From IMG/VR virus record IMGVR_UViG_3300002460_000149, positions 1-25,601 of that record: a stretch of 25,601 nt of DNA; one strand, 5' to 3'. Under the pieces are notes generated by a model. That model was not told where the DNA came from, searched no databases, and worked only from the letters and a program-made list of their open reading frames with translations. Shown here piece after piece: positions 2,100-22,370 of this stretch (positions are counted from its first letter, which is position 1; the number at the start of each line of letters is the position of its first letter). Origin of the DNA: a virus. A program made the position numbers and the translations under genes.

Positions 2100-2311
2100 T
2101 GGTTAAATATGAAGATAAAACACATCCTATATGGAACAAGGTTAATAGTATGGAAGATAAAATATCAACATTAGAGGCGGACGTAAGCGTTATCAGAAAT
2201 GATATAAGATGGATAAAAGAAAAACTTGATGGCAATACAAAAGTAATATATGGTGTTGGAGTTGGAGTAATAGTGGCTATCATAAGCCAAGTATTATTTA
2301 ATGTATTATAA
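2099..2311 (+). CDS. Small coiled-coil protein with C-terminal membrane segment (XhlA-like)
   Basis: 70 residues. Residues about 15-45 have a heptad pattern (MEDKISTLEADVSVIRNDI) that predicts a coiled coil. Residues about 48-70 are a hydrophobic membrane span (VIYGVGVGVIVAIISQVLF). This plan matches phage XhlA-type and related small membrane proteins, some of which help holins, but the sequence alone cannot prove a lysis role. It is translationally coupled on both sides by TAATG overlaps to the adhesin-like gene and to a 51-residue gene. It could equally anchor or help assemble the preceding surface protein. Confidence 0.55.
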   Translation: MVKYEDKTHPIWNKVNSMEDKISTLEADVSVIRNDIRWIKEKLDGNTKVIYGVGVGVIVAIISQVLFNVL

Positions 2312-2466
2312 TGCCAAAAATATCATTTCCAATAAAAGTGAGAGTAAAAGCACCTTGGGATAGATTAAAAAACTGGGAATACATAACAAAAGTATGGAGA
2401 AATCCTAAACAATTAGAAAAGATATGGAATCTTAAACATAGTTGGGATAAACCCGAAAGAGGATAA
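2311..2466 (+). CDS. Small basic protein, unknown function
   Basis: A 51-residue frame starting MPKISFPIKVRVKAPW and ending WDKPERG. It fills the gap between two coupled genes: its ATG overlaps the previous stop by one base, and its TAA ends two bases before the next ATG. It is rich in K, R and W and has no membrane span or metal motif. The close packing and lack of any other explanation for the gap support a real gene. I do not recognise a family. Confidence 0.6.
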   Translation: MPKISFPIKVRVKAPWDRLKNWEYITKVWRNPKQLEKIWNLKHSWDKPERG

Positions 2467-2468
2467 CA

Positions 2469-2849
2469 ATGGTTTGGAATTTAGGTTCAGTTCAAGTAGA
2501 AGTAAGTAAATTAATAGAAAGCATACCAACAGCGATAAGTGGAACTGAGATGAATTCTCTTATAGATAGAGAAAGAATTTATTTACAAAATATATTAGGT
2601 GTGAATATTGGAAGTAATTCTATTGGAGAATCTCACCAACAGGTATTGGTTGATTTAACTGCAGTTTCAGTTATTAATTCTATGGAATTAACAGGGGCAG
2701 ATGTATCATCTGTTAGTTTGGGAGAATTTAGTGAAAGTAAAGGTGCCCAAAGTAATTTATCTATCGCTAAAACAATGTTTCATACAAAGGCACTGGAAGG
2801 AATCAAAGCATTAGGAATAAGAAACAGTATGTATAAATCATTTGGATAA
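2469..2849 (+). CDS. Putative head-tail connector (adaptor) protein
   Basis: 126 residues, mostly helical in pattern, without cysteine or catalytic motifs. Start is MVWNLGSVQVEVSKLIESIP. Its size, helical nature and place as the first of three small genes before an HK97-gp10-like gene fit the head-tail adaptor that binds the portal ring in siphoviruses. The assignment rests on gene order and size rather than a clear motif. Its stop overlaps the next ATG (TAATG). Confidence 0.45.
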   Translation: MVWNLGSVQVEVSKLIESIPTAISGTEMNSLIDRERIYLQNILGVNIGSNSIGESHQQVLVDLTAVSVINSMELTGADVSSVSLGEFSESKGAQSNLSIAKTMFHTKALEGIKALGIRNSMYKSFG

Positions 2850-3271
2850 TGGCTTTCACAGATGAATTGATAACAGATGTAAATAGCATAATAAATTCTA
2901 GAGGTACGAGTGTTAGATTAAAACATTTCACGGAATCTTTTTCTGGAGCAGATTTTGACAATGCTTATTTAACTCAAAGCGGAACTAATCAATGGGTTGT
3001 AGCGTTTCCCCAACCTCTTAATGATAATAAGGCAGGAGAGGATTTAAGGTTATTAGAACAAGGTGCTATTAGTTTTGATGGTAGAAAGGTATTTTTTGCT
3101 GGCAGTGTTGAAATAAATCCAGATAGTATTATAGGGATTGGTAGTCCAACACCAATAGAATTTCATGTTATCAATAAAGGTATAATTGTATATAGCCTTG
3201 TAGGTACTAATGTATATAAAAAAGTGTATGTAGAAAGGTTAAATACAGGTAGTTTTATAGGACAATATTGA
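2849..3271 (+). CDS. Putative head-closure (stopper) protein
   Basis: 140 residues with a predicted beta-rich core (FDGRKVFFAGSVEINPDS, then EFHVINKGIIVYSLVG). It lies between the putative adaptor and the HK97-gp10-like gene, the usual position of the head-closure or stopper protein that plugs the portal channel. No diagnostic motif is visible, so this is a positional call. The gene is coupled to both neighbours by one-base stop/start overlaps. Confidence 0.45.
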   Translation: MAFTDELITDVNSIINSRGTSVRLKHFTESFSGADFDNAYLTQSGTNQWVVAFPQPLNDNKAGEDLRLLEQGAISFDGRKVFFAGSVEINPDSIIGIGSPTPIEFHVINKGIIVYSLVGTNVYKKVYVERLNTGSFIGQY

Positions 3272-3648
3272 TGGGAGTAAAAATAGAAATATTAGGGGTT
3301 CCAGAAATGATTAAGAAGATAGGAATATTAAAAAATAAAATAATAAATGCTCAAAGACAATCTTTAATTGAAGCAGGTGAACATTTAAGAGGAGAAATTA
3401 TATTAAGTATTTCAGGTCAAAGAGAAGAACCTAGAAGTGTAGATACTGGTAATTTTATGAGAAGTATTCAAAAAACAGTTGATACTGAAAAAGCTGTTAT
3501 TAAAAGTGATGTTTCTTATTCAAAAGAATTGGAATTTGGTACAAGTAACAGACCTGCGAGGTCACATTTTCAAAATTCTGCTAATAGAGAAGAAACAAAA
3601 ATTAAAGAAATAATAAATAAAACAGTTAAAAATGCTTTAAAATCTTAA
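3271..3648 (+). CDS. HK97 gp10-like tail completion / neck protein
   Basis: 125 residues from the ATG at 3271; a TTG codon just upstream (3268) is unlikely because the ATG overlaps the previous stop in TGATG fashion. The pattern is that of the HK97-gp10 family: an N-terminal helix region (EMIKKIGILKNKIINAQRQ), then VDTGNFMRSI, and near the C-terminus ELEFGTSNRPARSHFQNSA, matching the family signature of DTG.L..SI and E.GT...PAR.F. Proteins of this family connect head and tail in long-tailed phages. The gene ends the connector block and a 110-nt gap with promoter-like sequence follows. Confidence 0.85.
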   Translation: MGVKIEILGVPEMIKKIGILKNKIINAQRQSLIEAGEHLRGEIILSISGQREEPRSVDTGNFMRSIQKTVDTEKAVIKSDVSYSKELEFGTSNRPARSHFQNSANREETKIKEIINKTVKNALKS

Positions 3649-3758
3649 TTACTATAGTTGTTATAACAACTCTTTAATATATTTTAAATATTATCATAAG
3701 GTATAATATTTATTAACCTCCTCAAGCGAGAGGAAAAAGGTAAGCCAAGCGAGGCACA
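3649..3758 (+). promoter_or_regulatory. Intergenic control region before the tail genes
   Basis: The only sizeable gap inside the structural block. It holds a perfect 16-bp palindrome (3656-3671), AT-rich TATA-like stretches (about 3680-3691 and 3702-3711), and then a leader with two short hairpins sharing the sequence AAGCGAG, one at about 3718-3733 (CCTcCTC-AAGC-GAGAGG) and one at 3743-3754 (GCC-AAGCGA-GGC). GAGG at 3751-3754 could serve as ribosome binding site for the ATG at 3759. The CCTCC at 3717-3722 could pair with such GAGG runs. I infer an internal late promoter with a possibly structured leader. Confidence 0.5.
3656..3671. repeat. Perfect 16-bp palindrome, possible operator
   Basis: AGTTGTTATAACAACT is identical to its reverse complement. 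It starts eight bases after the stop of the gp10-like gene and precedes TATA-like sequence. It may be an operator for a dimeric repressor, or in RNA a short hairpin at the end of the connector transcript. Confidence 0.45.
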
Positions 3759-4211
3759 ATGACAATAACAACATCCACATTAATGGCAGATTCTGTAAAA
3801 CAGATTCGTACATATATTCAAACAATTACTGACCCTGTTTCTTCAGTAAGACCATCTGGTTCTTCCTTTGTATTAACATCTTACCCAGAAAGAGCAGTAT
3901 ATTATCCTATAATATCAATTAAGACTATTAAATTTGACACAGTAGGTAGATGGATAGGAACTGATAGTCAGATAATATCAATAGGTTTAGAAATCAGAGT
4001 ATGGGCTAGGAATGAAAAAGAAAAAGAACAATTAGGAGATAGTATTTATGATACATTGAGAAATATACAATTAACTACAACTACAGGTAGTGTAGCTTTG
4101 GGATTATTTAATTTTAATTTTTCAATGATAGGAGATGTAGATGAAATAGGATTAGGTTCCGTTAAATCAAGAATATTTAGAGTTGGATTTAATTATTTTG
4201 CTACAGATTAA
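3759..4211 (+). CDS. Putative tail terminator protein
   Basis: 150 residues. The pattern of alternating strands and helices (YYPIISIKTIKF, IISIGLEIRVWARNEKEKEQLGDSIYDTLR, IFRVGFNYFA) resembles gpU/gp17-like tail terminator or tail completion proteins, which cap the tail tube and have a small alpha/beta fold. Its place between the gp10-like protein and the tail tube gene is the usual one. There is no strict sequence signature, so confidence is moderate. It begins after an intergenic control region and is followed almost directly by the next gene. Confidence 0.55.
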   Translation: MTITTSTLMADSVKQIRTYIQTITDPVSSVRPSGSSFVLTSYPERAVYYPIISIKTIKFDTVGRWIGTDSQIISIGLEIRVWARNEKEKEQLGDSIYDTLRNIQLTTTTGSVALGLFNFNFSMIGDVDEIGLGSVKSRIFRVGFNYFATD

Positions 4212-4212
4212 A

Positions 4213-4476
4213 ATGACAAAAATATATATAAAACAAATAGGACCCCACCAACCATATGGTATGATTAAAGAAATAGATGAAATAATAGCATTGGAGTTAA
4301 TTAAAACTGGACAATGGATTAAATTAGATTCTTCAAATCAATATGATAAAAAATATTTGGAGAAATTATCAATGGATGAACTTCAAAAAATTGGGCATAA
4401 ATTTAATGTTAAAGATAATAAGAAAGAAGAACTTATTCCTAAAATTTTAGAAGCAGAATCAAAGGAAACTAAATAA
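4213..4476 (+). CDS. Small HeH/SAP-like helical domain protein
   Basis: 87 residues from ATG 4213, which lies just after the previous stop; an upstream in-frame ATG at 4183 would overlap the tail terminator gene by 29 bases and is less likely. Residues about 54-82 (YLEKLSMDELQKIGHKFNV then KKEELIPKILEAE) form a helix-extended loop-helix motif of the SAP/LEM/Rho-N kind, common as a small module in phage structural operons. The N-terminal half (MTKIYIKQIGPHQPYG) is beta-like. It may be a minor tail or connector protein. Its stop overlaps the tail tube start by one base. Confidence 0.6.
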   Translation: MTKIYIKQIGPHQPYGMIKEIDEIIALELIKTGQWIKLDSSNQYDKKYLEKLSMDELQKIGHKFNVKDNKKEELIPKILEAESKETK

Positions 4477-5486
4477 TGGCAATTTTTTCACAAGACCAAT
4501 CCCAAGTTTCATGGCAATATGAAACCGGAACATATGCTACTCCAACTGGAACTTCACAATGGCCAGGACATGTTCAATCACATAATCCTAGTGAAGACAC
4601 TGGAGTAAATAAAAAAGTAATTAGATATATAGGGGCAGGAGATAGAAGTCTTTCTACTTTTATAGATGGTCCTTCTTCTTATGCAGGTACTCTATCTTAT
4701 TTTCCTACAGATTGGAAAATATTAAAATTTGCATTAGGTAAGAATGCTGATGCTGGAAGTCCTTCTCCTTATACACATACTATAAGCGAAGCTAATAGTG
4801 ATAATTCTAATGGAGAAATAGCACAGCAAGTATTACCTTCATTTTCTGTAGAAGATGCTCAAAGAGTATTGATAGCAGGTAGTGGTTTAAATCTTATAAG
4901 GACTTATAAAGGATGTATAGTTGATTCATTTTCAATGAATATGGCTGAAGGAGAACCTATTTCTGTTGAAGTAGGATACACAGCTAAAACTGTAGATTTT
5001 TCATCAGGAACTATAGCTACAGTAACAGCAGCAACTACATCACCATTTTTATGGGAACATACACTGATAAATTTAGCAGGAACAAAATTAAACACAGTTA
5101 AATCTTCTACATTTTCTATAAAAAATAATTTAGATGCACCTCATTATGTAGATAATACCATAAACATTTCAACACCAATACCAAAAGCTAGAGATTATGA
5201 AATGACTCTAAATTTAAATGCTGATAGCTCAAGAACAAATGAAATATACAACCAATATTTTATAGGTGGGAGTACATTTAATGTAGATATATTTTCTGCT
5301 GTGGGTTCAGCAACAAATGATATATTGATAGCGATGAGTGGTTGTAAACTAACTGGATTTAGTGATACATCAGCGACAGAAGGTGTAGTAGAACATGTAT
5401 TAACTATTATTCCAAAAAATGTATCTGTAATTGTAGATGATGCAATACAATTTTACAATGCAGGAAGTTATGCAGGAACTGTATAA
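4476..5486 (+). CDS. Major tail tube protein
   Basis: 336 residues, beta-rich, opening with SQVSWQYETGTYATPTG, the kind of N-terminus (an entity compared with a typical E.TYGT.) seen in siphovirus tail tube proteins. A second half from about residue 200 (STFSIKNNLDAPHYVDN, then PIPKARDYEMTLNLN) looks like a further tube-type beta-sandwich repeat, making it longer than minimal tube proteins. It is immediately followed by the tail assembly chaperone pair and the tape measure gene, which fixes its role well by gene order. It should be among the most abundant virion proteins. Confidence 0.75.
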   Translation: MAIFSQDQSQVSWQYETGTYATPTGTSQWPGHVQSHNPSEDTGVNKKVIRYIGAGDRSLSTFIDGPSSYAGTLSYFPTDWKILKFALGKNADAGSPSPYTHTISEANSDNSNGEIAQQVLPSFSVEDAQRVLIAGSGLNLIRTYKGCIVDSFSMNMAEGEPISVEVGYTAKTVDFSSGTIATVTAATTSPFLWEHTLINLAGTKLNTVKSSTFSIKNNLDAPHYVDNTINISTPIPKARDYEMTLNLNADSSRTNEIYNQYFIGGSTFNVDIFSAVGSATNDILIAMSGCKLTGFSDTSATEGVVEHVLTIIPKNVSVIVDDAIQFYNAGSYAGTV

Positions 5487-5494
5487 GGAGGTGA
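5485..5494 (+). promoter_or_regulatory. Strong Shine-Dalgarno site for the tail chaperone gene
   Basis: AAGGAGGTGA is complementary to the full 3' end of archaeal and bacterial 16S rRNA and lies four bases before the ATG at 5499. It is the strongest ribosome binding site in the structural block and partly overlaps the stop of the tail tube gene. Confidence 0.8.
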
Positions 5495-5498
5495 ATGA

Positions 5499-5864
5499 AT
5501 GGTAATAAATAAAGAAGATACTTTATTTAATAGAGATGAAAAGGGAGAATTACTTCCTATTGAAATCTTTATAGATAAGTTAAAAGATAGTGTAAAAGTT
5601 ATTCCTTTAACTAGAGGTGAATTAAGAAAATTAGGATTAGGATTGATAGAAGGAGGAACTACAAAAGACCAAGATGCTGAATTAATACTAAAACATTGTA
5701 TTTCTCCTAAATATACAGAAGAAGAAATCAAATTTATTAAATCTACAATAGCAGATAATATAGTATTAGCCATTTTAGAAGCTTCTGGTTTAGATATAAA
5801 TAAAGCAAAAAATTCAGTTGATAATGCAATTAATGATTTTGAGAATGAATTAAAAAAAAAATGA
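5499..5864 (+). CDS. Tail assembly chaperone, upstream part (G-like)
   Basis: 121 residues, mostly helical, highly charged, between the tail tube and tape measure genes, where long-tailed phages encode the G/GT-type chaperones that coat the tape measure during tail assembly. Typical features are the short beta start (IPLTRGELRKL) followed by helices (EEIKFIKSTIADNIVLAILEAS). The last codons are TTA AAA AAA AAA TGA, a run of ten A residues that gives a canonical -1 slippery heptamer directly before the stop. A -1 shift would extend the protein by the 57-residue frame at 5861-6034. Confidence 0.75.
   Translation: MVINKEDTLFNRDEKGELLPIEIFIDKLKDSVKVIPLTRGELRKLGLGLIEGGTTKDQDAELILKHCISPKYTEEEIKFIKSTIADNIVLAILEASGLDINKAKNSVDNAINDFENELKKK
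5852..5861 (+). other. Predicted -1 programmed ribosomal frameshift site
   Basis: Ten A residues at 5852-5861 include A AAA AAA read in the zero frame of the upstream chaperone gene, just before its TGA at 5862-5864. The next coding frame is offset by exactly -1 and has no stop until 6032. Frameshifting at this position in the tail chaperone pair is a conserved feature of tailed phages. Confidence 0.7.
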
Positions 5865-6034
5865 AAATAAAACGTAAACAGAATCTTGCTTTTTTTTTAC
5901 ACCAAACAGGATATAATTTTTTTAATGAACCTAAATTAACAAACTGGGAGGTTATGCATCTTGTAGATTATCACAATGAAATAGAAAGAAAAAAGGAAAT
6001 TGAGATAATCAAACAAAGACATAAAAATAAATAA
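5861..6034 (+). CDS. Tail assembly chaperone, -1 frame extension (T-like)
   Basis: A 57-codon frame that may be read by -1 frameshift from the preceding gene, or started at its own ATG (ATGA overlap at 5861-5864). The product ends with a helical segment (LTNWEVMHLVDYHNEIERKKEIE), whose W-x-V/E-x-x-x-L-x-x-Y pattern fits the small T domain that binds the tape measure in GT proteins. Its stop overlaps the tape measure ATG by one base. No ribosome binding site precedes its ATG, which favours frameshifting over independent starts. Confidence 0.7.
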   Translation: MKIKRKQNLAFFLHQTGYNFFNEPKLTNWEVMHLVDYHNEIERKKEIEIIKQRHKNK

Positions 6035-7749
6035 TGGTGAGTGGATTAGGAGGACTTGCACAAGCAGCATTAGGAGGAGGAGCAGCAGGAGGAGTCATTT
6101 CTATTATAATCAGAGCACAGGACCAATATTCTAATGAAATGCAAAAAGCCGCGGCTTCTACAGATAGACTTAAAAATTCTGCATTAGCATCAGCTGCTAA
6201 AATGACTGTTCTTGGAGCAGCTATAGGAATTACTGTTAAATTTCTCGGAGATGCTGCACAAGCTGGTTTAAAATTTGAAACAGCCCAAGCTAAATTTAAT
6301 GCCACTACAACTAATTCCAGTAAACTTTTAAAAGATTTACAAGATGCTTCTAAAGGAACTGTTAGTAATTTAGATTTAATGACTAATTCTAACCAAGCTT
6401 TAGCGTTGGGAATAGACCAAAATAAATTACCTGAATTATTAAAAATATCAGGGGCCTTAGGACAACAAACAGGAAGAAGTGTTACTGAAGCATTTGGGGA
6501 TATAACAAGAGGTATTGGAAGACAAAGCCCTCTTATTTTAGACAATTTGGGTATTATCATAGATAGTAACGCAGCTTATGATACATATGCTAAAAAAATA
6601 GGTAAATCTGCAAGCGAATTAACTGTTGCTGAACAAAAAACTGCCTTTTTAAATGCTGTAATAGAACAAGGAAATAAGAAATATGCTGAAAGTGGTGGTT
6701 TAATAGAAACTACTGAAGTTAAATTAGCAAGGTTAACAACATCATATGATAATTTTAAACAAAAAGTAGGAACAGGATTGATAAATGTAGGAACTAAATT
6801 ATTAGATTGGTTTTCAGGATTAGGGGAAAAAATAAAACCTATGACAGATAAAATGTTACCTGAATTAAAATCTGCCTGGAGTGGTTTATTTAGTGAATTT
6901 GGTGGTGGAAATAAGATATTATCAACTTTAAGTGATATAATTGGAAAATATATTATCATTTCTATTAAAATAATGTTAACATTATTAACAGGTCTTGCAT
7001 TAGTTGTTAGAGAAAATATTTTGGGTTTTAAAATTATAGCAGATACAATTTATGTATTCGGATTAAGATTAAAAGAAGCAGGTTTACATGCTAAAATATT
7101 TTGGAATACATTAACTGGTCAAGATACTACGCTATTGAATGCACAATTAACAGATACTTCATTAAAAATATCAGAAGTAACAAATAGATTAGCTACTAAT
7201 AAACAAGAATTTGTAGATACTGGTGAAAAAATAAAACAACTCGGTCCAAATTTAATTCAAAATATCAAAAAACCTATGGAAGAATCTGCTGAATCAGCAA
7301 AAAAAAGTGGAAAAGTTTTAATAGAAACTGCTGGTGAAGTTACAAATGCTTGGGGACAGGCCGCTACAAGTATTAATGATTTTCAGGCCGCAGTAGATAA
7401 TTTAAATAAACAAAAAGCAATGGCTTCTGGTATAATAGGAGGAACATCTGTAGCGAGAGAAGAATTTACTAGAACAATAGAACAGGCCAAGGCATATGGA
7501 AGTACAATAACCTCTTTCACTAGGGGAAATATTCAAAATACCGCAGAAGGAGGAATAGTAATGAGTCCACAAATAAGAAGGATAGGAGAAGCTGGGCCTG
7601 AAGCCATTATTCCATTAAATAAAACCAATAGTATGGGTGGAATTACTATTAATATAGGAACTATAACAACTGCATCAGCTCGTCAATTTGCAGATGATTT
7701 AATGGGAATACTTAATACAAGATTGCAGGCTACAGGGAGAATAAGATAA
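6034..7749 (+). CDS. Tail tape measure protein
   Basis: 571 residues. A glycine/alanine-rich hydrophobic N-terminus (about residues 4-26) is followed by RAQDQYSNEMQKAAASTDRLK and long helical stretches. A region around 130-205 (LPELLKISGALGQQTGRSV, then TRGIGRQSPLILDNLG) is the conserved tape measure domain. A hydrophobic segment lies near 303-325. The C-terminus holds EGGIVMSPQIRRIGEAGPEAIIPL, a widespread tape measure ending. It sets tail length and is ejected with the DNA. At 571 residues it predicts a rather short tail, roughly 85 nm if the usual 0.15 nm per residue rule holds. Confidence 0.92.
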   Translation: MVSGLGGLAQAALGGGAAGGVISIIIRAQDQYSNEMQKAAASTDRLKNSALASAAKMTVLGAAIGITVKFLGDAAQAGLKFETAQAKFNATTTNSSKLLKDLQDASKGTVSNLDLMTNSNQALALGIDQNKLPELLKISGALGQQTGRSVTEAFGDITRGIGRQSPLILDNLGIIIDSNAAYDTYAKKIGKSASELTVAEQKTAFLNAVIEQGNKKYAESGGLIETTEVKLARLTTSYDNFKQKVGTGLINVGTKLLDWFSGLGEKIKPMTDKMLPELKSAWSGLFSEFGGGNKILSTLSDIIGKYIIISIKIMLTLLTGLALVVRENILGFKIIADTIYVFGLRLKEAGLHAKIFWNTLTGQDTTLLNAQLTDTSLKISEVTNRLATNKQEFVDTGEKIKQLGPNLIQNIKKPMEESAESAKKSGKVLIETAGEVTNAWGQAATSINDFQAAVDNLNKQKAMASGIIGGTSVAREEFTRTIEQAKAYGSTITSFTRGNIQNTAEGGIVMSPQIRRIGEAGPEAIIPLNKTNSMGGITINIGTITTASARQFADDLMGILNTRLQATGRIR

Positions 7750-10971: not shown

Positions 10972-11163
10972 ATGGGAAAAGAATGGTATAAAAGTAAGAC
11001 GATATGGACCGCTATTGCGGCAGGTGTATTGACTACTATATATCAATTAGGATATGTAGATGCTAGCCAATTCCAAACAATTGGAGGAGTATTAGCTGCA
11101 TTTGGTCTATATGCTTTAAGAGACGGAATAGGTAAACCTATTGCACCAATACTAAAACAATAG
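10972..11163 (+). CDS. Small holin-like membrane protein
   Basis: 63 residues from the ATG at 10972, which has GGAGGT four bases upstream; an in-frame ATG at 10960 would add MEVK and could be used if the message is leaderless. The sequence MGKEWYKSKTIWTAIAAGVL opens with a basic stretch then a hydrophobic segment (about 11-27), with a second span at about 37-50 (TIGGVLAAFGLYAL) and a short tail PIAPILKQ. Such two-span proteins are frequent as putative holins at the end of phage late operons. A lysis role is inferred; no endolysin is seen next to it. Confidence 0.5.
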   Translation: MGKEWYKSKTIWTAIAAGVLTTIYQLGYVDASQFQTIGGVLAAFGLYALRDGIGKPIAPILKQ

Positions 11164-11170
11164 TGTTTAT

Positions 11171-11192
11171 CTTTTTTATTTTTTTTATTTTC
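11171..11192 (+). terminator. T-tract terminator of the structural operon
   Basis: CTTTTTTATTTTTTTTATTTTC-like T-rich tract starts about eight bases after the stop of the last + strand gene. Archaeal RNA polymerase stops at such oligo-T stretches without needing a hairpin. It lies at the convergence point of the two gene directions and overlaps the 3' end of the first - strand gene. Confidence 0.6.
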
Positions 11193-11379
11193 TAATTGTA
11201 AAGTTTTTTTGTTTACAAGCAGGACATTTATCTTTATCCATAAATCTCCAAACAGCAACAATTAAACCCGGAATTACAAAGGCAAATAACAATATCATTG
11301 TTAATATACCCCAACCCACACCATAAGTAGTAGGTTGTACAGTTGCTTTACAATTCTTACAATACAAAAGTTGTGTCAT
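11185..11379 (-). CDS. Zinc-ribbon membrane protein
   Basis: 64 residues with a split zinc ribbon: C7-x2-C10 (LYCKNCKATV) and C52-x2-C55 (KCPACKQKNF). Between them is one long hydrophobic span at about 22-44 (GWGILTMILLFAFVIPGLIVAVW). The layout, a CxxC knuckle on each side of a hydrophobic hairpin or span, recalls LITAF-like and other small membrane zinc proteins. It is the last gene of the - strand run. AAGGA about ten bases before its ATG may act as ribosome binding site. Function unknown. Confidence 0.6.
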   Translation of the reverse strand: MTQLLYCKNCKATVQPTTYGVGWGILTMILLFAFVIPGLIVAVWRFMDKDKCPACKQKNFTIRK

Positions 11380-11393
11380 ATTTATTATCCTTA

Positions 11394-11669
11394 TTATAAT
11401 TTATAAACATATGTATCTCCTTTATAATTTAATACTTTTATTTTTTCTTTTAATTCATTTTTAAATATATATGAGTATACAGATTGTTTATTTTTAATTA
11501 AATCTTCTTCAGAATTGGGTGTAATTTTTAATATTTTATTAGATTGTAATAAGAAATTATTTATTAATAATTTCCACCTACCACTACTTTTACTTAATAA
11601 TTCCAATTCTTTTAAAATTTCATCTGAATCAAAAGTTTCAAATTTTTTTACTTTTTCATAATTTATCAT
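11394..11669 (-). CDS. Small hypothetical protein
   Basis: 91 residues from ATG 11669; a TTG at 11684 would add five residues but overlaps the previous gene's last codons. GGAAG eight bases before the ATG at 11669 supports the shorter form. Charged and helical in the first half (SDEILKELELLSKSSGRWK), beta-like at the end (KIKVLNYKGDTYVYKL). No known motif. It is one of a block of tiny - strand genes that look like typical early accessory genes of a virus. Confidence 0.5.
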   Translation of the reverse strand: MINYEKVKKFETFDSDEILKELELLSKSSGRWKLLINNFLLQSNKILKITPNSEEDLIKNKQSVYSYIFKNELKEKIKVLNYKGDTYVYKL

Positions 11670-14352: not shown

Positions 14353-16689
14353 TTAATATTCAAATAAATCTTCTTTAATTATTTTATTTTCCTCCTTTTC
14401 AATCCAATTATATTCTGATTCAAGGTTTTTTGAGTTTGTTATAAATAATTTTGATGAAATAGATTTCACACCGAAAGAATAATTCCATCCTAATGCAGAA
14501 TAAATTCTTTCCACTTTATTATCAATTGTACTAGGCATCATTTTTGACCAATCTACTTTTATATTTTTAGGTAACTGCCAACTAAATTCAAAACTTATTA
14601 CATCTGTTCCAATTCCTTTATCATAGTAAGGATAAATAAAAATAAATTTTACTTTATTTCCTTCTTTGAACTGTGTTTTAAGATATTTATTAGAGTATTT
14701 TGCTCCTCTCACATGTGGAACATTTGATTTATATGTATTCAATGGTTTAGTTATTGCTTTTGGAATTCCTATATCATCAAAAGTATAAAATCCTTCTATC
14801 AATTTTTTCTTTTCTGTTTTTATGAATTCATCAATATCAGATTTATTTTTTTCTTCTAATACCATCCTAAATAATTTCTTTTGTATTTTTTGTGCAATAT
14901 AAGAACTATCACTTCTTATAACTTCAAAACCTACTATAACTAATTTTTCAGGATTAAGTATTTCACCATCTAAATAATTTACTAAACCAGCATAACGTTT
15001 TTTACTTTCCCCAAAAAATACTTTACTGAATAATTTTTCAAATTCCATTTCAAAATTATGTACCAGAATATTATGTTGTTGTGCAAAATCTTTATAAATA
15101 AAATTAATATAAGAACATATTTCCTTTAACCTTTCTACAGCATTTTCACCTTCTACTTTTATAAAATTACTATCTGTATCTGCATATATAACATCCATTC
15201 CTTTCTTATTTACTTCTTCTTTTGTCCAATTTATGATTTTTCTTCCTATGTATGTAACACTTCCTGCTATTTCTTCCCTATACAAACGGTAGTGAGGAGA
15301 ACCTAATACACCATAAAAACTATTTAATATTATTTTAATTGCATATTGTTGATTATAGTATTTGTTATAAAGAGAAGTACTGTAAGGATATTGTTTCATT
15401 AAAGATTTATAGTGTTTTCTTAATTTAAATAATTCTATCAATATATCAGGAATTAAACCTTTACATTCTTCTTTACTTTTGAATTTAATTCCATTACCTA
15501 CATCTATTTTACCTTCTTTATTAATTGTTTCTGGGCTCATATTATAAGAGATAATTATGGAAGGATATAGCGATTTTAAATCTAATACTCCTACATTTTT
15601 ATGCAATCCTGGTTTAGGAGTTAGAACTAATCCACCCTTTAAATCTTTACGTTTATGTGGTATTGTGGTAGGCAGAATAAACTTTTTATCTAGTTTTCTT
15701 ATTAATAATACATCTGCTATTCTAGTATTATATTGTAAATCTTCCCAATTACAACCTATTTCTCTTCTCAATGTATCAAAATAATCTATGATACCTTTTT
15801 CCTCATTTAATAATTTTAAAAGTAATGTATCTTGTCTTGAATATTCTACTAATTTAGGTTTATTTTGTTTATTTAATTCTTCAAATGACATATTAATAGG
15901 TAATTTAACTTTTTCTTCTCCTAATTCTAATTTTGATATAGAATTTAATCTGTAACTTACTTTTTCACCTGCAGTTAATATTTTATACCCTTTTAATAAA
16001 TCAAAACATACTCTGCCTTTTACTTTAAAATCATTTTTATCACTGATACACCAATTCATAGGTGAAATGGTTTTGAATTGTTTATCTATTCCTAATTTTT
16101 TACATCTATTAAATAAATATGGAAGGTCAAAATTATTACTGTTCCATCCTACTATTAAATCTGGGTCTAAATCTCTTATTTTATTTATAAAATATAAAAA
16201 CATTTCTTTCTCATTTTCACATATTACAGTATCTAAAATTTTTTCTTTTAAATCAAATGTTATAACAGTAGGAATTAAATCATGGTTTGTCATAAAAGAA
16301 ATCATGGTTACAGGTTTAGGTGTGTTAATAACATCTAATGAATCAGCGGTTTCAATATCAAAATATAATATTTCTAAAGGTGTATAAGATATTTGTTTTA
16401 TTCTATCAACTAAATATCTAGTAGTATATCTTATATCTGCCTCCCAGGTTTTTAGATATTTTTGTCTTTCAATTATTACATCTCCAGGAACATTGACATA
16501 AATTCTTTTAATATTATCTCCATACAATCCTTTAAATTCTCCTCCTTCATCTTCTATATAAAAATAAGGTTGAAAATCTGTTATCAGTATTTGTTCTCTT
16601 TTTCTTGTTTCAGGATTTCTTGTAAATAGCATTAAATCATTTTTTCCATCTAATTCTATACACACCAAAGGTAATGTTTTTAATTCCAT
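14353..16689 (-). CDS. polB: Family B DNA polymerase
   Basis: 778 residues, full length for an archaeal replicative polymerase B. The 3'-5' exonuclease motifs are intact: YFDIETAD (D111, E113), WNSNNFDLPY (N186, D188) and YSRQDTL (Y283, D287). The polymerase motifs are intact: DLKSLYPSI (370-378, catalytic D370), KIILNSFYG (452-460) and YADTDS (502-507), followed by a KKRYAGL motif. No intein or insertion interrupts it. It starts three bases after the dpdA stop and runs into the nuclease gene, so modification and replication genes appear to be co-transcribed. Synthesises the viral genome, probably with the PCNA clamp from the same operon. Confidence 0.97.
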   Translation of the reverse strand: MELKTLPLVCIELDGKNDLMLFTRNPETRKREQILITDFQPYFYIEDEGGEFKGLYGDNIKRIYVNVPGDVIIERQKYLKTWEADIRYTTRYLVDRIKQISYTPLEILYFDIETADSLDVINTPKPVTMISFMTNHDLIPTVITFDLKEKILDTVICENEKEMFLYFINKIRDLDPDLIVGWNSNNFDLPYLFNRCKKLGIDKQFKTISPMNWCISDKNDFKVKGRVCFDLLKGYKILTAGEKVSYRLNSISKLELGEEKVKLPINMSFEELNKQNKPKLVEYSRQDTLLLKLLNEEKGIIDYFDTLRREIGCNWEDLQYNTRIADVLLIRKLDKKFILPTTIPHKRKDLKGGLVLTPKPGLHKNVGVLDLKSLYPSIIISYNMSPETINKEGKIDVGNGIKFKSKEECKGLIPDILIELFKLRKHYKSLMKQYPYSTSLYNKYYNQQYAIKIILNSFYGVLGSPHYRLYREEIAGSVTYIGRKIINWTKEEVNKKGMDVIYADTDSNFIKVEGENAVERLKEICSYINFIYKDFAQQHNILVHNFEMEFEKLFSKVFFGESKKRYAGLVNYLDGEILNPEKLVIVGFEVIRSDSSYIAQKIQKKLFRMVLEEKNKSDIDEFIKTEKKKLIEGFYTFDDIGIPKAITKPLNTYKSNVPHVRGAKYSNKYLKTQFKEGNKVKFIFIYPYYDKGIGTDVISFEFSWQLPKNIKVDWSKMMPSTIDNKVERIYSALGWNYSFGVKSISSKLFITNSKNLESEYNWIEKEENKIIKEDLFEY

Positions 16690-16691
16690 TG

Positions 16692-17822
16692 TTAGTAGTA
16701 ATCAAGTAAATTTTTAGTTCTATGTCTTACACCTTTTTCATAATTTTCTAATCCATTTTCAATACATCCATCAATATATTCTATTCCTTTTAAAGCATTT
16801 CTAGAATGTTTTGATATAAAAAATTTTAGATATTCTTTATCCTTTATTCCTGTTATTATACTAGTGTAATCAACAATATGATTTAAATTATGTAAAGATA
16901 ACAAACTTAATCCAAATGTATCATCTTTACCTTCTTCTGATAATATATTGTATTTATTAATCATTTTACAGCTTTCACATATGCAAGGTGATTGTTTAAA
17001 ATCAGCTACAATATTATTTTCTGTAAGTATCCTTTCTCTATCACTAGATAATTTAATCATATCAAAATATTTTAAAGGATTAAAAATAGCTTTATATTTA
17101 CTACCAATAATATAAGAGGAACTATCAAAAGTAATAAGAGGATGTTTGGATAATAAACCATAATAAGTTATCATAGGGATACTTGTTTTACCACTAACCT
17201 GTAATATATGAATTGGTTTATCTGGAAAATTTTCTTTAGCAAAAATAAGATATTTTGCTATTTGTTCAGGACTTGTAGATGGTTTTGGGGCTAATGCGTA
17301 ACCATCAAATTGATGGTTTTTAGTTAATCTATCATACCAAGATTTCATTTCTTGATAAGTTTCTCCTTGTATTGTAGCATATAATTTAAGATTATTATTT
17401 TTTCTACTTTCTATCGCTTTTTCACTGTTAACAGCAGTTTGCTCCATTTTTTTAATAAACCCTTCTCCTGTTAATTTAGAACCAAATTGCATTGTTTCGG
17501 ACATTGTATAAGGAGGTGTATCAAGTGTTAATCCTATGTTCGCAACCTTTTCCTGCCATCTTAAAATTTTAATTACATCAATATCTTTACTCATACTAAC
17601 ACTTTGATATCCACCACTATCAGCTATTATGGTTACATTTGGAGCTATATCTAATTCTTCTCTGTAATTATGTCTATCAAAATTATAAAAAGCAGATGAG
17701 AGAATATAAGGATAATAAAAAGTACATTCTTTTTTCCACCAATAAATACATTCAGAATAAGGAGTTTTTGGTTTATTATTAAATGCCCCTCCTATTGCTG
17801 GAATATATTTAATTTCTACCAT
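16692..17822 (-). CDS. dpdA: DpdA-type 7-deazaguanine DNA transglycosylase
   Basis: 376 residues of the tRNA-guanine transglycosylase superfamily. Visible are ADSGGYQSVS (67-76, base-binding loop with D68), LTLDTPP (99-104), ATIQGETY (149-156), HILQVSG (205-211), ITFDSSSY (230-237, with D233 as likely nucleophile) and the zinc site CICESC (C280, C282, C285) with H311 in LSLHNLNHIV. The sequence departs from tRNA enzymes and lacks the PUA domain of archaeal arcTGT, as expected for DpdA, which swaps guanine in DNA for a preQ0-derived base. It overlaps the queF gene by seven bases and sits with folE, queD, queE and queC, so it most likely modifies viral DNA. Confidence 0.88.
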   Translation of the reverse strand: MVEIKYIPAIGGAFNNKPKTPYSECIYWWKKECTFYYPYILSSAFYNFDRHNYREELDIAPNVTIIADSGGYQSVSMSKDIDVIKILRWQEKVANIGLTLDTPPYTMSETMQFGSKLTGEGFIKKMEQTAVNSEKAIESRKNNNLKLYATIQGETYQEMKSWYDRLTKNHQFDGYALAPKPSTSPEQIAKYLIFAKENFPDKPIHILQVSGKTSIPMITYYGLLSKHPLITFDSSSYIIGSKYKAIFNPLKYFDMIKLSSDRERILTENNIVADFKQSPCICESCKMINKYNILSEEGKDDTFGLSLLSLHNLNHIVDYTSIITGIKDKEYLKFFISKHSRNALKGIEYIDGCIENGLENYEKGVRHRTKNLLDYY

Positions 17823-18286
17823 TGTGAAAATAAAAGATAATTTACATAAAATTTTTCTTCATCATTATTTTTTTCATATCTTATAATTACTTCAGATGGT
17901 ATTCCACCTCTTGGTTCAAAAACAAATTTTGCATTTAATTTATGTGGTAAACATATTTTCACTAAATCTTTTATTATTTGTACAGCTATAAATTCTTTAA
18001 ACATTCCTATGTTTCTATATCCATTTAAATAAAGTTTTAGAGATTTTTCTTCTACAACAACCATATCAGGAACATATTTTATTGTAAGGGTTCCAAAATC
18101 CGGAAGTCCTGTTTTAGGGCATAGACTATTGAGTTCTTTAGAAGTGTAAATTACTTCATATTTGACATCTTTATGTATATTATCAACAGTTTGCAGTTTT
18201 GAAAGTTGTTTTAATTGTTCTGTTATGTTTTTATGCTTATTTTCATAACCGGTTATATCTTTCACTTGTTTTGATATTTTATTCAT
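17816..18286 (-). CDS. queF: QueF-family preQ0-converting enzyme
   Basis: 156 residues with the T-fold signature of QueF: SLCPKTGLPDFGTLTIKY, giving the thioimide-forming C56 and the proton donor D63; VEEKSLKLYLNGYRN, the NADPH-binding motif E-x-K-S-x-K-x-Y; and PRGGIPSEV near the end. In QueF the next active-site motif reads F-H-E; here it is F96-K97-E98, so the histidine is a lysine while the glutamate that binds the base is kept. QueF reduces preQ0 to preQ1; archaeal QueF-like proteins instead form archaeosine from preQ0. The NADPH motif favours the reductase, the missing histidine leaves room for another activity. GAGGT eight bases before the ATG is a good ribosome binding site. Confidence 0.85.
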   Translation of the reverse strand: MNKISKQVKDITGYENKHKNITEQLKQLSKLQTVDNIHKDVKYEVIYTSKELNSLCPKTGLPDFGTLTIKYVPDMVVVEEKSLKLYLNGYRNIGMFKEFIAVQIIKDLVKICLPHKLNAKFVFEPRGGIPSEVIIRYEKNNDEEKFYVNYLLFSQW

Positions 18287-18971
18287 TGTTATACCTCAAT
18301 TTTGTATTACTACTATCTAAAATAAATGGTGTTTGATAAGGTTGTTTATGATACATATATTCCAATATTTTCTTAATTTCTTTGATATATGTTTTAATAT
18401 TCCATTCTTTAGATAATTTTTCAATCCAATCAAACATAACCATATCATCTTTAAACTGTTTTTCATTTAGACCTTCTATTAATGTTGCACAACAATTTTT
18501 ACAAAGATTACGTGCAAATGGAGACTTAATAATGTTAGTCCTTCTTAAATTTTTATTATATATAAATTTTATAAGAGGCATTTTACAATGCAATGGTTTC
18601 CAATTATGTATTAAACATTTATTATTTTTTAAATATTGACATTCATTTTTATGTCTTTGACCCACATAAATCTTTTTAATATGTCCATTAACTTTCATTT
18701 CTATTTCTTGTAAATCTTTTTTATTTTCTTCAGGAATTTCTTTATATTCTATTTGACCCCAAAATTTATAAAAAGGAATTTTGCAACATCCAGCATTACT
18801 CATACATGTGTAATTTCTAAAAAATAATGAACTTATCCTGATTTTTTTAGGAGCGTTAAAATGATATTTTTTTCCTTCATATTCTATTTCAACATCTTCT
18901 TTTGCAATTAAAGCTATATATTTCATTTCTACATAGAAATCTTTGATTAGTGCAGATTTATTTATTTTCAT
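18279..18971 (-). CDS. Cysteine-rich YkgJ/CxxCxxCC-like metal-binding protein
   Basis: 230 residues with cysteines in the order of the YkgJ-type (CxxCxxCC) family, thought to bind zinc or an Fe-S cluster: C56 and C62-C63 in YTCMSNAGCCKIPF, then C111, C119, H122 and C129 in ECQYLKNNKCLIHNWKPLHCKMP, and C157, C160, C161 in LCKNCCATLI. The KCLIH...P..C...P stretch is characteristic. Biochemical role of the family is poorly known. It overlaps queC by 14 bases and queF by 8, so it is embedded in the preQ0 cassette. It may act in the modification pathway, for example as a metal-cofactor enzyme on the base; that is inference. Confidence 0.7.
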   Translation of the reverse strand: MKINKSALIKDFYVEMKYIALIAKEDVEIEYEGKKYHFNAPKKIRISSLFFRNYTCMSNAGCCKIPFYKFWGQIEYKEIPEENKKDLQEIEMKVNGHIKKIYVGQRHKNECQYLKNNKCLIHNWKPLHCKMPLIKFIYNKNLRRTNIIKSPFARNLCKNCCATLIEGLNEKQFKDDMVMFDWIEKLSKEWNIKTYIKEIKKILEYMYHKQPYQTPFILDSSNTKLRYNNE

Positions 18972-19698
18972 ATTGTATAGGGTCCTCCATTCCTATTTTT
19001 TTAAATGCTTCTAATCTTTCTATACAACTACCACATTTACCACAAGCTTTTTCTCTTCCTTTATAACAAGTCCAAGTTAATGAATAATCTACATTCCATT
19101 TTTTTCCACATAATGCTATATCGCTTTTATCTATATTAATAAAAGGTGCAGATAAAATAGGAGGATTCCAATCACATAAACCAATACTTTTTTTCATAGA
19201 AGATATAAATTCTATTCTACAGTCAGGATAAATATGATGGTCTCCAGAATGGGCTCCGTAAAATAAATATTTAGCTCCATTACTTATAGCGAATGATGTA
19301 GCTAAACTGAGCATAACCATATTTCTATTTGGAACTACAGTTTGTTTCATATTATCATCTGTATAATATCCTTCTGGTATGTTAATATAATCTCTTGTTA
19401 AAGCTGAGTCTGCTACTTGATTTAATACATTTAAATCTAAAATTATTTGAGGTACTCCTAATTTTTTACAATTAATCATGGCCATTTCTAGTTCCTTTTT
19501 ATGTTTTTGTCCATAATTGAAAGACAATGCTATTACTTTTGCTCTGTTTTTAACTAATCCATATAACAAAGTAGTAGAATCCATTCCTCCTGATAATATT
19601 ATAATACATTTTTCATTTTGTATTCCTTTAGTAATCTCTTTAAAAAAATCATCATCTACAAATGATTTATTTACTGTTTGTGTTGTTGTCATTGTCAT
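18958..19698 (-). CDS. queC: 7-cyano-7-deazaguanine synthase QueC
   Basis: 246 residues. The PP-loop ATP-binding motif LSGGMDSTTLL lies at 35-45, followed by SFNYGQKHKKEL, VPNRNMVMLSLA and GAHSGDHHIYPDC, all typical of QueC. The zinc site is C211, C219, C222 and C225 in TCYKGREKACGKCGSC. The enzyme turns 7-carboxy-7-deazaguanine and ammonia into preQ0 with ATP. It has no glutamine amidotransferase extension, so it is not the Gat-QueC type that makes archaeosine in some phages. The gene starts five bases after folE. Confidence 0.96.
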   Translation of the reverse strand: MTMTTTQTVNKSFVDDDFFKEITKGIQNEKCIIILSGGMDSTTLLYGLVKNRAKVIALSFNYGQKHKKELEMAMINCKKLGVPQIILDLNVLNQVADSALTRDYINIPEGYYTDDNMKQTVVPNRNMVMLSLATSFAISNGAKYLFYGAHSGDHHIYPDCRIEFISSMKKSIGLCDWNPPILSAPFINIDKSDIALCGKKWNVDYSLTWTCYKGREKACGKCGSCIERLEAFKKIGMEDPIQYENK

Positions 19699-19702
19699 TA
19701 TT

Positions 19703-20209
19703 TTATCTCCTCATTAAATCTAAAAATTCTTTTCTAGCATCACTATCTGTTTTATATATTCCTCTTAATGATGATGTGGTAGTTTCTCCTTCGGTTTTTA
19801 TACCTCTTATTTCTATACATAAATGTCTGGCTTTCATTATTATTATTAATCCTTTAGGTTTTAATTTATCATCTAAATATGTAGCGATTTCATCTGTTAA
19901 TTTTTCTTGCACTTGTGGTCTATGTGCAAACATATTTACTGTTCTTGAAAATTTACTTAATCCTGCTATTTTACCGTTTGGTATGTAACCAATATAAAAA
20001 TCTCCGAAGAATGGAACTAAATGATGTGAACACATAGAATAAAATTTACCCCTAATAATTATCATTTCATCAATTTTACTTTCAAAAGTAGTAAAATTAA
20101 AGTTTAAACTATCATCTACCCATTCCTTAATAAATTTTTTATGTCTTTTCGGTGTATTTTTTAATTCTTCCTTTGTAAATAAATCATCTGAGTATTCAAT
20201 TTTCATCAT
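19703..20209 (-). CDS. folE: GTP cyclohydrolase I (FolE type IA)
   Basis: 168 residues from ATG 20209 (MMKIEYSDD; ATG 20206 is also possible). A longer frame to 20239 would run further into the upstream gene and is not needed. Zinc ligands are C60 and H63 in SMCSHHLVPFFG and C131 in ARHLCIEIRG. IPNGKIAGLSKFSR and RPQVQEKLTDEIA are further family signatures. It converts GTP to 7,8-dihydroneopterin triphosphate, the first step to preQ0. Most archaea use the unrelated MptA for this step, so a bacterial-type FolE here indicates recruitment for 7-deazaguanine production rather than for host folate or methanopterin. Confidence 0.95.
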   Translation of the reverse strand: MMKIEYSDDLFTKEELKNTPKRHKKFIKEWVDDSLNFNFTTFESKIDEMIIIRGKFYSMCSHHLVPFFGDFYIGYIPNGKIAGLSKFSRTVNMFAHRPQVQEKLTDEIATYLDDKLKPKGLIIIMKARHLCIEIRGIKTEGETTTSSLRGIYKTDSDARKEFLDLMRR

Positions 20210-20624
20210 TGTTTTCCCATGGATATTGTATCCATTCATCTTCTTTTTTTTCTATCGCCCAAAATTCTGGTTGAATTTTAGATTTTTTACAATAATGTAT
20301 TGTGGCTAATTTAAAATTTATATATTTACTTAATGTTTTTCCTGTGTCTGCTATATCATCACATACAATAGTTGAATTAATATTACCATGGTCTAATTCT
20401 TTTGATGACCATACTATAGGACTTAGTCCTGTATATTTTTTAATTTTATGTGATAACATTGTAGCTATTATAAATCCACCTCTTGGAATTCCTGCCAATA
20501 ATCCTATTTTTAAATCATTTTGTTCTACTTCAAATAAGATATTTTTTGCTAATTTGTCAATTGCATATTCTAATTCAGACCATGTCATTTTAATAATTTT
20601 TTGTTTTTTATTTTTTTCTACCAT
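20196..20624 (-). CDS. Purine-type phosphoribosyltransferase
   Basis: 142 residues of the type I phosphoribosyltransferase fold: LLAGIPRGGFIIATML (42-57), the PRPP-binding loop IVCDDIADTGKTL (86-98) with the two acidic residues, and a C-terminal PEFWAIEKKEDEWIQYPWE like the hood of xanthine-guanine or hypoxanthine phosphoribosyltransferases. It would add ribose-5-phosphate to a purine base. It overlaps queE by one base and folE by 14, so it is part of the preQ0 cassette. It may recycle the guanine that DpdA releases, boost the GTP supply for FolE, or act on a 7-deazaguanine base; the sequence does not decide. Confidence 0.8.
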   Translation of the reverse strand: MVEKNKKQKIIKMTWSELEYAIDKLAKNILFEVEQNDLKIGLLAGIPRGGFIIATMLSHKIKKYTGLSPIVWSSKELDHGNINSTIVCDDIADTGKTLSKYINFKLATIHYCKKSKIQPEFWAIEKKEDEWIQYPWENNDEN

Positions 20625-21286
20625 TATCTTTTCCTATTATTATCATACATCATCACATGTAACCTCGGTGTTAATTTTATATCATATTGTCCTGACTCTG
20701 TTAACATGTTTTCAATGACTCTTAATCTTTTTATTTGTATGTTTGATGTAACACCTTCTGCCATAAAATAAACATTTCTTAATTTTAATTTCTTTTTTAA
20801 GGATAATGCCATTTTAAAATCTCCTAAATTTTTAATTACAAATTTAAAATCATTTTCTAAAAATTTATTATATTGTCTTAATGCTTCTTCATTTAAATTT
20901 ATTTTTGCTTCAGCACTGTATAATTTTGGACTTACATTGAACCTGACATATTGTTGTAACTCAGAATTATAATTTATTCCACTAGTTTCTATTTCTATTC
21001 CTCCCATTCCACCTTGTTTTACTATTTTTACTAAATCAACTAGGTCTTTTTGTATAGTAGGTTCTCCTCCTGTTATTACTACATTATCTGCAAGTTTGTT
21101 TTCTAAAATTTCCTTTGATAATTTTTCAGGTGTTACTGTAAATGGTTTTTCTTTACCATTCCAACTTTCTGGAATATCACACCAGTTACACTGTACAGGA
21201 CATCCGAAGGTTCTGATAAAATAACTATAAACACCTAAATTTCTACCTTCCCCTTGGAATGCCATATATACTTCATGAACTTTCAT
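20624..21286 (-). CDS. queE: 7-carboxy-7-deazaguanine synthase QueE
   Basis: 220 residues of the radical SAM superfamily. FQGEGRNLGVYSYFIR precedes the cluster motif C29-x3-C33-x2-C36 (GCPVQCNWCD), the variant typical of QueE for its 4Fe-4S cluster. ITGGEPTIQ (71-79) binds the SAM amino group, and NVSPKL (around 116-121) lines the substrate pocket. The enzyme contracts 6-carboxy-tetrahydropterin to 7-carboxy-7-deazaguanine. It starts within the queD stop (ATGA overlap) and ends in overlap with the phosphoribosyltransferase gene. Confidence 0.95.
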   Translation of the reverse strand: MKVHEVYMAFQGEGRNLGVYSYFIRTFGCPVQCNWCDIPESWNGKEKPFTVTPEKLSKEILENKLADNVVITGGEPTIQKDLVDLVKIVKQGGMGGIEIETSGINYNSELQQYVRFNVSPKLYSAEAKINLNEEALRQYNKFLENDFKFVIKNLGDFKMALSLKKKLKLRNVYFMAEGVTSNIQIKRLRVIENMLTESGQYDIKLTPRLHVMMYDNNRKR

Positions 21287-21648
21287 TTTAATTCAGATGA
21301 ATCTGCCTCTGCATAGGAATTACTAGTTTCCCAAATTCTTACTTTACAAGGAAATCCAAATTTAACAAATATATTTAACATTATTTCTGTAGCAATATTT
21401 TCTGCTGTTGTAGGAATATTTTTATTTAAAAAAGGAGGTATTTGATTTAAATTTTTATGGTCGTAATTATCATTTATCATTTTCTTAATATGTGTAAAAT
21501 CTGCTATCAATCCTGTTTCTTTATTTACTGTTCCTTTTATCCAAACTTCAATTTTATATGTATGACCATGTAATTCATTACACTTGCTATCATATGGCAA
21601 AAATAATTGATGTGCTGAGTCAAATGTAAATGTTTTGTATATTTCCAT
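21283..21648 (-). CDS. queD: 6-carboxy-tetrahydropterin synthase QueD
   Basis: 121 residues, the normal length for QueD. Zinc ligands are H13 in FDSAHQL and H27, H29 in ELHGHTY; the catalytic C23 is in SKCNELHGH. DHKNLNQ (63-69), IPTTAENIA (78-86) and RIWETSNSYAE (104-114) complete the family pattern. It turns dihydroneopterin triphosphate into 6-carboxy-tetrahydropterin, step two of preQ0 synthesis. The ATG overlaps the PCNA stop by one base, which couples modification directly to replication genes. Confidence 0.96.
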   Translation of the reverse strand: MEIYKTFTFDSAHQLFLPYDSKCNELHGHTYKIEVWIKGTVNKETGLIADFTHIKKMINDNYDHKNLNQIPPFLNKNIPTTAENIATEIMLNIFVKFGFPCKVRIWETSNSYAEADSSELK

Positions 21649-22370
21649 TAATCTGCCCTCGGAGCTAAAATATATTTTACTTCTGAAAAATTTGTAGGAT
21701 TATAATTAATTTGCATAGGATAATCATTTTTTAAAAACAATTTACAAGTTTTTTTATCTATTACTTGTAATATATTTAACAATTGTTCACCAAAAGAAGA
21801 TTTACAATTTAATTCTTTTTCTAAATTTAATTCTAATCTATAAATATATTTTTTAAATTTATTATCTCCTATATGTATCAATAAATGTTTATCTAGTACC
21901 TCTAAAATTATATTACCTTCTTTGATTGTGTTTCTAAATCTAGCTATTTTTTTGCCATCTAATACATTTGGCCCAGATAAAGATATATATTCCTCAAAAC
22001 TAAGATTTGGAACTTTATCTTGTTCAGAAATTTCTCCATTTATTAAAGGAACAGAAAACTTTTCTTTTTCAGACCTTATTATTAATTTTCCAGTTTCTTC
22101 TGTTACTGTTATAGTTGTATCAAAATTTTCTATTAATTTAATAAATTCTGATATATTATTTAGTATAAAATTGAATGGAACAATTTCGTGAAAGATTTCT
22201 TCATTCAAATGACCACTTACAAAAAGTGATTGCGAAGCTGATGTAGCATTTATATACAAACCATCTTTTTTTAATCTGAAAATAATATCTTTTGTATCAA
22301 ATTCATTATTTATAAACATATTTCTAAGAAAATCACTTAATTCTTTACTATCTATTTTAAATTTCCCCAT
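21648..22370 (-). CDS. pcn: PCNA-like DNA sliding clamp
   Basis: 240 residues, the usual clamp size. The two-domain clamp pattern can be seen: an N-terminal part with IIFRLKKDGLYINATSASQSLFV and PFNFILNNISEFIKLI, an interdomain stretch with SVPLINGE, and a C-terminal KYILAPRAD, like the P-loop strand and tail (YYLAPK) of archaeal PCNA. It would encircle DNA and tether polymerase B. The sequence is divergent from cellular PCNA, as is common for viral clamps. It overlaps the upstream ATPase gene by 14 bases. Confidence 0.8.
   Translation of the reverse strand: MGKFKIDSKELSDFLRNMFINNEFDTKDIIFRLKKDGLYINATSASQSLFVSGHLNEEIFHEIVPFNFILNNISEFIKLIENFDTTITVTEETGKLIIRSEKEKFSVPLINGEISEQDKVPNLSFEEYISLSGPNVLDGKKIARFRNTIKEGNIILEVLDKHLLIHIGDNKFKKYIYRLELNLEKELNCKSSFGEQLLNILQVIDKKTCKLFLKNDYPMQINYNPTNFSEVKYILAPRAD

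Follow-up and report, generated by a model that had tools for sequence, protein, structure and literature searches.

The cassette between clamp and polymerase

The window analyzed here, the whole 25,601 nucleotides (nt) of IMG/VR virus record IMGVR_UViG_3300002460_000149, carries on its minus strand (21648-16692) a cassette of eight genes that we predict to be, probably, a complete and self-contained module for 7-deazaguanine modification of DNA. The cassette lies between a PCNA-like sliding clamp and DNA polymerase B (PolB), and along the minus strand its order is QueD, QueE, a Gpt-like phosphoribosyltransferase (PRTase), FolE, QueC, a CxxCxxCC protein, QueF and, last before PolB, a TGT-family transglycosylase (Table 1). 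Genes within the cassette are joined by overlaps of 1-44 nt, the longest between FolE and PRTase (44 nt), or by gaps of 2-4 nt; the clamp gene overlaps QueD by 1 nt, and 2 nt separate the transglycosylase from PolB. A second IMG/VR contig of the same virus, IMGVR_UViG_3300002460_000171, matches the window at 100% identity over 16,907 base pairs (bp) that include the entire cassette, which argues against an assembly error.

Gene families were called with Pfam, PHROGs and NCBIfam, and catalytic and metal motifs were checked by script. QueD retains its zinc ligands (H13, C23 and HGH), QueE its C29xxxCxxC and GGEP motifs, and FolE the zinc ligands in C70-S-H-H and HLC, while QueC combines SGGMDS with a four-cysteine cluster (Cx7CxxCxxC) and has no glutamine amidotransferase domain. 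In QueF we observed C56 within C56PKTGLPDF, D63, EEKSLKLY (the E-x-K-S-x-K-x-Y motif) and PRGG, and in the transglycosylase the catalytic aspartate pair D68 (DSGG) and D233 (FDSSS) together with a complete CxCxxC..H zinc site (C280/C282/C285/H311). An earlier note on this DNA had named these six genes, had placed them in an overlapping or near-touching run ahead of PolB and had called their motifs intact; all of this agrees with our family matches, whose E-values lie far past chance, and with the script check. Its gene list was nonetheless short by two of the eight, the PRTase and the CxxCxxCC protein. The self-sufficient route from GTP to preQ1 that it proposed, along with a transglycosylase, is supported, and the genes form part of a replication-gene operon. 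At the level of sequence, the content and order of the cassette and its intact motifs are well established, as is the fact that each of the two extra genes turns up repeatedly beside cassettes of this type. In the window PADLOC flagged QueC only and gave nothing else useful, and a promoter and terminator scan returned background level only.

Table 1. Cassette genes in minus-strand order, followed by the two genes that flank them
Gene or product	Length (amino acids)	Position	Strand	Family evidence
QueD (6-carboxytetrahydropterin synthase)	121	21283..21648	(-)	PTPS 1.2e-30; TIGR03367 1.5e-24, slightly below cut-off
QueE		20624..21286	(-)	Radical_SAM 2e-12; PHROG 2076 7e-36
Gpt-like purine phosphoribosyltransferase (PRTase)	142	20196..20624	(-)	PF00156 5e-7, above cut-off
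FolE (GTP cyclohydrolase I)	178	19703..20239	(-)	PF01227 (GTP_cyclohydroI) 5e-51
QueC (preQ0 synthase)	246	18958..19698	(-)	PF06508 4e-66; TIGR00364 above cut-off
CxxCxxCC (YkgJ-like, DpdM-like) protein	230	18279..18971	(-)	PF03692 1.4e-4; between QueC and QueF
QueF (preQ0 reductase)	156	17816..18286	(-)	TIGR03139 (QueF-II) 1e-34, above cut-off
DpdA/TGT-family guanine transglycosylase	376	16692..17822	(-)	TGT PF01702 1.6e-10; TIGR00449 9e-15; both above cut-off
PolB (DNA polymerase B)		14353..16689	(-)	PF00136 9e-57; downstream in cassette gene run
PCNA-like sliding clamp		21648..22370	(-)	archaeal clamp models (PRK01115) 3e-12; clamps in the PDB 1e-3; upstream of cassette

QueF, the CxxCxxCC protein and the predicted base

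Given that the window QueF matches bacterial nitrile reductases (best PDB match 4f8b, 2e-21), preQ1 rather than archaeosine is the expected product. The competing view, in which the QueF homologue is a QueF-L-type amidinotransferase and archaeosine (dG+) is the base in the DNA, draws on the difficulty of separating phage QueF from QueF-L by sequence (PMC6884629), a point that also counts against our own assignment. The protein nevertheless scores above cut-off with the TIGR03139 preQ1 synthase model, and all seven of its PDB matches are QueF reductases, with no QueF-L among them. Moreover, the QueF homologues of Dp-1 and HVTV-1 gave mainly dPreQ1, not archaeosine, when chemically tested (PMC6884629). 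We consider archaeosine very unlikely and a preQ1-type modification highly probable.

The CxxCxxCC protein bears on what happens to preQ1 afterward. It aligns with CEPG_00054 of Cellulophaga phage phiSM (E=3e-8), whose homologues in phages Pan1 and Knocker each sit within a cluster holding QueF and a transglycosylase. A tblastn search of phages with the window protein found no match, and IMG/VR scans for the family with one or two sequences recovered the window's own virus only, or nothing; the sole IMG/VR query that reached relatives was a four-sequence alignment (window, phiSM, Pan1 and Knocker). This query returned ten further loci, all ten inside preQ0 or preQ1 clusters and all ten on contigs with QueF, nine in view of the locus and the tenth elsewhere on the contig. 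QueF also accompanies the family in phiSM, Pan1, Knocker and the Vibrio phages QD01, D484 and Va3. QueF-like genes are themselves a minority feature, with 33 phage records matching the window QueF against 242 matching its QueE, and the CxxCxxCC family was found here in 7-deazaguanine viruses only, always with QueF. When the fold predicted for the window protein (pTM 0.71) was searched, only three viral proteins matched (E 2e-8 to 2e-7); by length these correspond to Knocker gp4, Va3 gp325 and phiSM CEPG_00054. The PDB gave no match. The distant homologues in QD01, D484 and Va3 are 304-335 amino acids (aa) long and annotated as hypothetical, and their genes lie far from queC and queF, yet these genomes carry both.

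We take this family to be DpdM, a dPreQ1 methyltransferase reportedly described, together with DpdN and DpdA4, in a 2023 Nucleic Acids Research paper by Cui. FliB, which methylates lysine amines, is likewise a CxxCxxCC protein, and N-methylation of an amine would suit a gene tied to QueF, since QueF makes that amine. Two features of the window copy weigh against this assignment: it lacks the second cysteine of the N-terminal four-cysteine motif (C-x3-C-x2-CC), and it is missing the loop conserved in the bacteriophage members (GRGWAMxRxDGERGA), with 12 residues that do not vary among phiSM, Pan1 and Knocker. Given these losses, we call methylation likely yet uncertain. They would be expected if the same module housed a CxxCxxCC protein that is no longer a methyltransferase, or that performs other chemistry, leaving plain dPreQ1 in virion DNA as in HVTV-1, which makes dPreQ1 with no CxxCxxCC protein in its cluster. 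Against such a loss of function, family membership, position beside QueF and fold are all kept, and the DpdM-like sequence of another IMG/VR virus (IMGVR_UViG_3300005613_003983, hereafter L098) is intermediate in the same loop region. On balance we give even weight to the methylated form (methyl-preQ1) as the predicted modification of virion DNA and regard plain dPreQ1 as a substantial though less probable outcome. The preQ1-type product put forward in the earlier note stands for the preQ1 step, QueF being like bacterial nitrile reductases, while the end product changes, in view of the CxxCxxCC gene, to what is probably N-methyl-preQ1.

The transglycosylase and the phosphoribosyltransferase

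By sequence, the transglycosylase belongs to a zinc-bearing TGT-like branch, distinct both from the DpdA1-like clade and from the HVTV-1 type. Our tree places it outside the DpdA1-like clade of PaMx25, CAjan, Dp-1 and phiSM (100/99) and also apart from the tRNA-TGTs (100/99), although its branch is long and drew a long-branch warning. HVTV-1 gp69, which from its position we take to be that virus's candidate DpdA (DpdA4 subfamily), showed no phmmer similarity to the window enzyme and took a separate tree branch, itself very long. Relatives recovered by phmmer were proteins of Illi-2, GR11A and Pseudomonas phage 30-3, as well as DpdA-like proteins from PRTase-bearing contigs. The label "DpdA-type" given previously is supported by context, and fails if taken to mean the DpdA1-like clade or the HVTV-1 type. 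The nearest phage relatives, in Pseudomonas phage Illi-2 (5857-7227) and Vibrio phage GR11A (3617-5206), are zinc-bearing TGT-like proteins of large phages that carry QueC, with no QueF detected in either; Illi-2 and GR11A are possibly unrecognized 7-deazaguanine phages using the same type of enzyme as the window.

From gene context we infer that this enzyme acts on DNA rather than tRNA. If the cassette instead made preQ1-type bases for viral or host tRNA, with the transglycosylase boosting or changing translation, one could point to its TGT zinc site, to an FDSSSY nucleophile motif close to the FDSA[SA]Y of archaeal TgtA and to matches above cut-off with PF01702 and TIGR00449. Two features count against a DNA target: the retained zinc site, which tRNA-TGTs have and DpdA1-type proteins do not, and the long and poorly placed branch; the structure model of the enzyme (pLDDT 42) was too poor for a fold search. 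A role in tRNA sits badly, however, with the position of the enzyme, long-branched as it is, outside the tRNA-TGT clade and with its lack of both the archaeal tRNA-binding domain and the C-terminal portion of TgtA. Each of the four archaeal genomes tested encodes a TgtA of its own, viral DNA-modification clusters typically include partners like the DpdM-like protein and the PRTase, and the gene run sits between clamp and PolB. We judge the tRNA role decidedly unlikely.

The PRTase matched purine PRTases in the PDB (4trb, 3e-5; 1vdm, 5e-5), and both its phosphoribosyl pyrophosphate (PRPP) motif, DDIADTGKT (DDxxDTGxT), and its C-terminal base-site motif, WIQYPW (WIxxPW), are intact. An E. coli Gpt sequence also served for comparison, and the Gpt-like assignment is carried independently by the PDB matches. 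To gauge linkage we used two overlapping samples of 80 IMG/VR loci, one of the closest relatives of the PRTase of Flavobacterium phage immuto and one ranked by similarity to the window PRTase. At least one preQ0-cassette gene lay within 5 kilobases (kb) in 78/80 loci of the immuto sample, and a preQ0-cassette gene did so in 75/80 of the window sample, where 55/80 had FolE no more than 400 bp away. When only full-flank loci are counted, cassette genes were present in 42 of 42 (immuto sample) and 38 of 41 (window sample), together 80/83 with the samples overlapping, and DpdA was seen in 36 of 42 and 29 of 41, respectively. For comparison, a QueE-like match occurs in 242 of 50,697 phage records. 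The PRTase is common in viral preQ0 cassettes of varied make-up, dozens of them in all. Three full-flank viral loci (L150, L157 and L159) had no cassette gene detected within 5 kb.

In Pseudomonas phage PaMx25 (JQ067084) the association takes the form of a fusion, with a single 297-aa open frame (5893-6783) comprising a PRTase-like domain (hhalign E 6e-14; hidden Markov model 1e-6) and FolE; in its place the deposited record shows a truncated folE and, in another frame, a hypothetical gene (gp38). The fused domain is matched by 34 phage records, in most of them within a feature labelled GTP cyclohydrolase. Our search of the open-access literature, with subscription papers outside it, found no paper linking a phosphoribosyltransferase to viral 7-deazaguanine or DpdA cassettes.

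We favor the view that the PRTase salvages the guanine freed by the transglycosylase. Purine PRTases are ordinary salvage enzymes and we know of no assay of a viral Gpt-like PRTase, both of which would suit a general purine-salvage enzyme that serves replication and has nothing to do with modification; the concentration of the full-flank relatives in preQ0 cassettes (80/83), the frequent closeness of FolE and the FolE fusion in PaMx25-type phages speak against this, and it seems unlikely to us. In a more radical form the PRTase would make a deazaguanine nucleotide for insertion by the polymerase, which is most improbable because the majority of full-flank PRTase loci also carry DpdA.

Together, the genes suggest a scheme whose catalytic steps, DNA target and protective role we infer from their sequences and arrangement. 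FolE, QueD, QueE and QueC would convert GTP to preQ0, which QueF would reduce to preQ1. Following replication, the transglycosylase would excise guanine from viral DNA and insert preQ1 (or preQ0, reduced later), and the DpdM-like CxxCxxCC enzyme would probably form methyl-preQ1 by N-methylation of the aminomethyl group. The Gpt-like PRTase would probably salvage the exchanged-out guanine through GMP to GTP for FolE, and the altered guanines would shield the viral genome from host restriction. We expect with considerable confidence that virion DNA contains some 7-deazaguanine, and it is probable, setting the two extra steps aside, that the module makes a preQ1-type DNA modification. The fuller proposition stands, in our estimate, at an even balance: that viral 7-deazaguanine systems hold a dedicated guanine-salvage Gpt-like PRTase, whether separate, overlapping or fused to FolE, and that the window virus adds to it a divergent branch toward methyl-preQ1 and a DNA transglycosylase that is TGT-like, zinc-bearing and on a branch of its own.

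As a general result, the link between the PRTase and these cassettes interests us most. If the enzyme does salvage guanine, it would explain how the excised base is reused when much of a virus's guanine is replaced, with the base removed from DNA becoming feedstock for the base inserted, and its gene would be a new marker by which such viruses could be found.

The virus and its relation to known systems

We consider an archaeal host very likely, in keeping with the earlier claim of a tailed archaeal virus. Among phage records the closest PolB proteins are those of the haloarchaeal tailed viruses HRTV-25, HRTV-27 and Serpecor1, and in a genome-contig scan, with patterns derived partly from a haloarchaeal virus, PolB relatives were archaeal in nine of nine cases (Methanoculleus, Methanogenium, Altiarchaeales, a euryarchaeon and Methanoperedens). 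Synteny between these contigs and the window was not found beyond PolB, so we name no host. The clamp had no match among phage records, and the window helicase matches ERCC3/XPB. The second contig of this virus (its positions 1-6100) reaches ~6 kb past the right end of the window, where it encodes a 450-aa protein and completes the XPB-like helicase, with no tRNA in the extension. The plus strand up to ~11.2 kb is given to the tail, with genes for neck, tail tube, tape measure and hub; at 11163-11394 the coding strand switches, with plus-strand tail genes until 11163 and minus-strand replication and cassette genes from 11394, and both GC skew and AT skew flip sign there. At 3-2099 lies an open frame of ~700 aa, truncated at the edge of the window, which is Asn/Thr/Ser-rich, repetitive and without a Pfam match; it possibly encodes an adhesin-like virion protein.

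Systems of this kind are already known, and the two extra genes probably sharpen the prediction toward methyl-preQ1 and guanine recycling. Few archaeal viruses are known with a complete deazaguanine module and a transglycosylase of their own. The halovirus HVTV-1 (Druskaviridae) is an archaeal tailed virus that has preQ0 genes and QueF and carries dPreQ1 at ~30% of G (PMC6884629). It resembles the window in having FolE, QueD, QueE, QueC and QueF near PolB, but its cluster is scattered and includes neither a PRTase nor a CxxCxxCC protein; the predicted methyl-preQ1 product and the zinc-bearing transglycosylase further set the window apart. The phiSM cluster (FolE, QueF, the DpdM-like CEPG_00054, DpdA, QueC, QueD and QueE) shares the same preQ0 route, QueF beside a homologous CxxCxxCC protein and a transglycosylase in the same run, whereas its DpdA is a zinc-less member of the DpdA1-like clade, the stretch viewed has no PRTase and the virus is a bacteriophage. 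Phage immuto (QueD-QueE-PRTase-FolE-DpdA-DpdN-like-QueF) shares the order QueD-QueE-PRTase-FolE along with DpdA and QueF, but a formyltransferase-like gene replaces the CxxCxxCC protein and its DpdA is of a different clade. PaMx25 and Nipunavirus (Queuovirinae) likewise have the preQ0 route and DpdA, in PaMx25 with the PRTase homologue fused to FolE; unlike the window, PaMx25 has no QueF seen in its cluster, a longer QueC (466 aa) and a DpdA of the CAjan type. Near-identical in gene order is L098 (QueD-QueE-QueC-FolE-DpdM-QueF-DpdA, 29% GC), which differs from the window in having no PRTase in view and a DpdA within the DpdA1-like clade.

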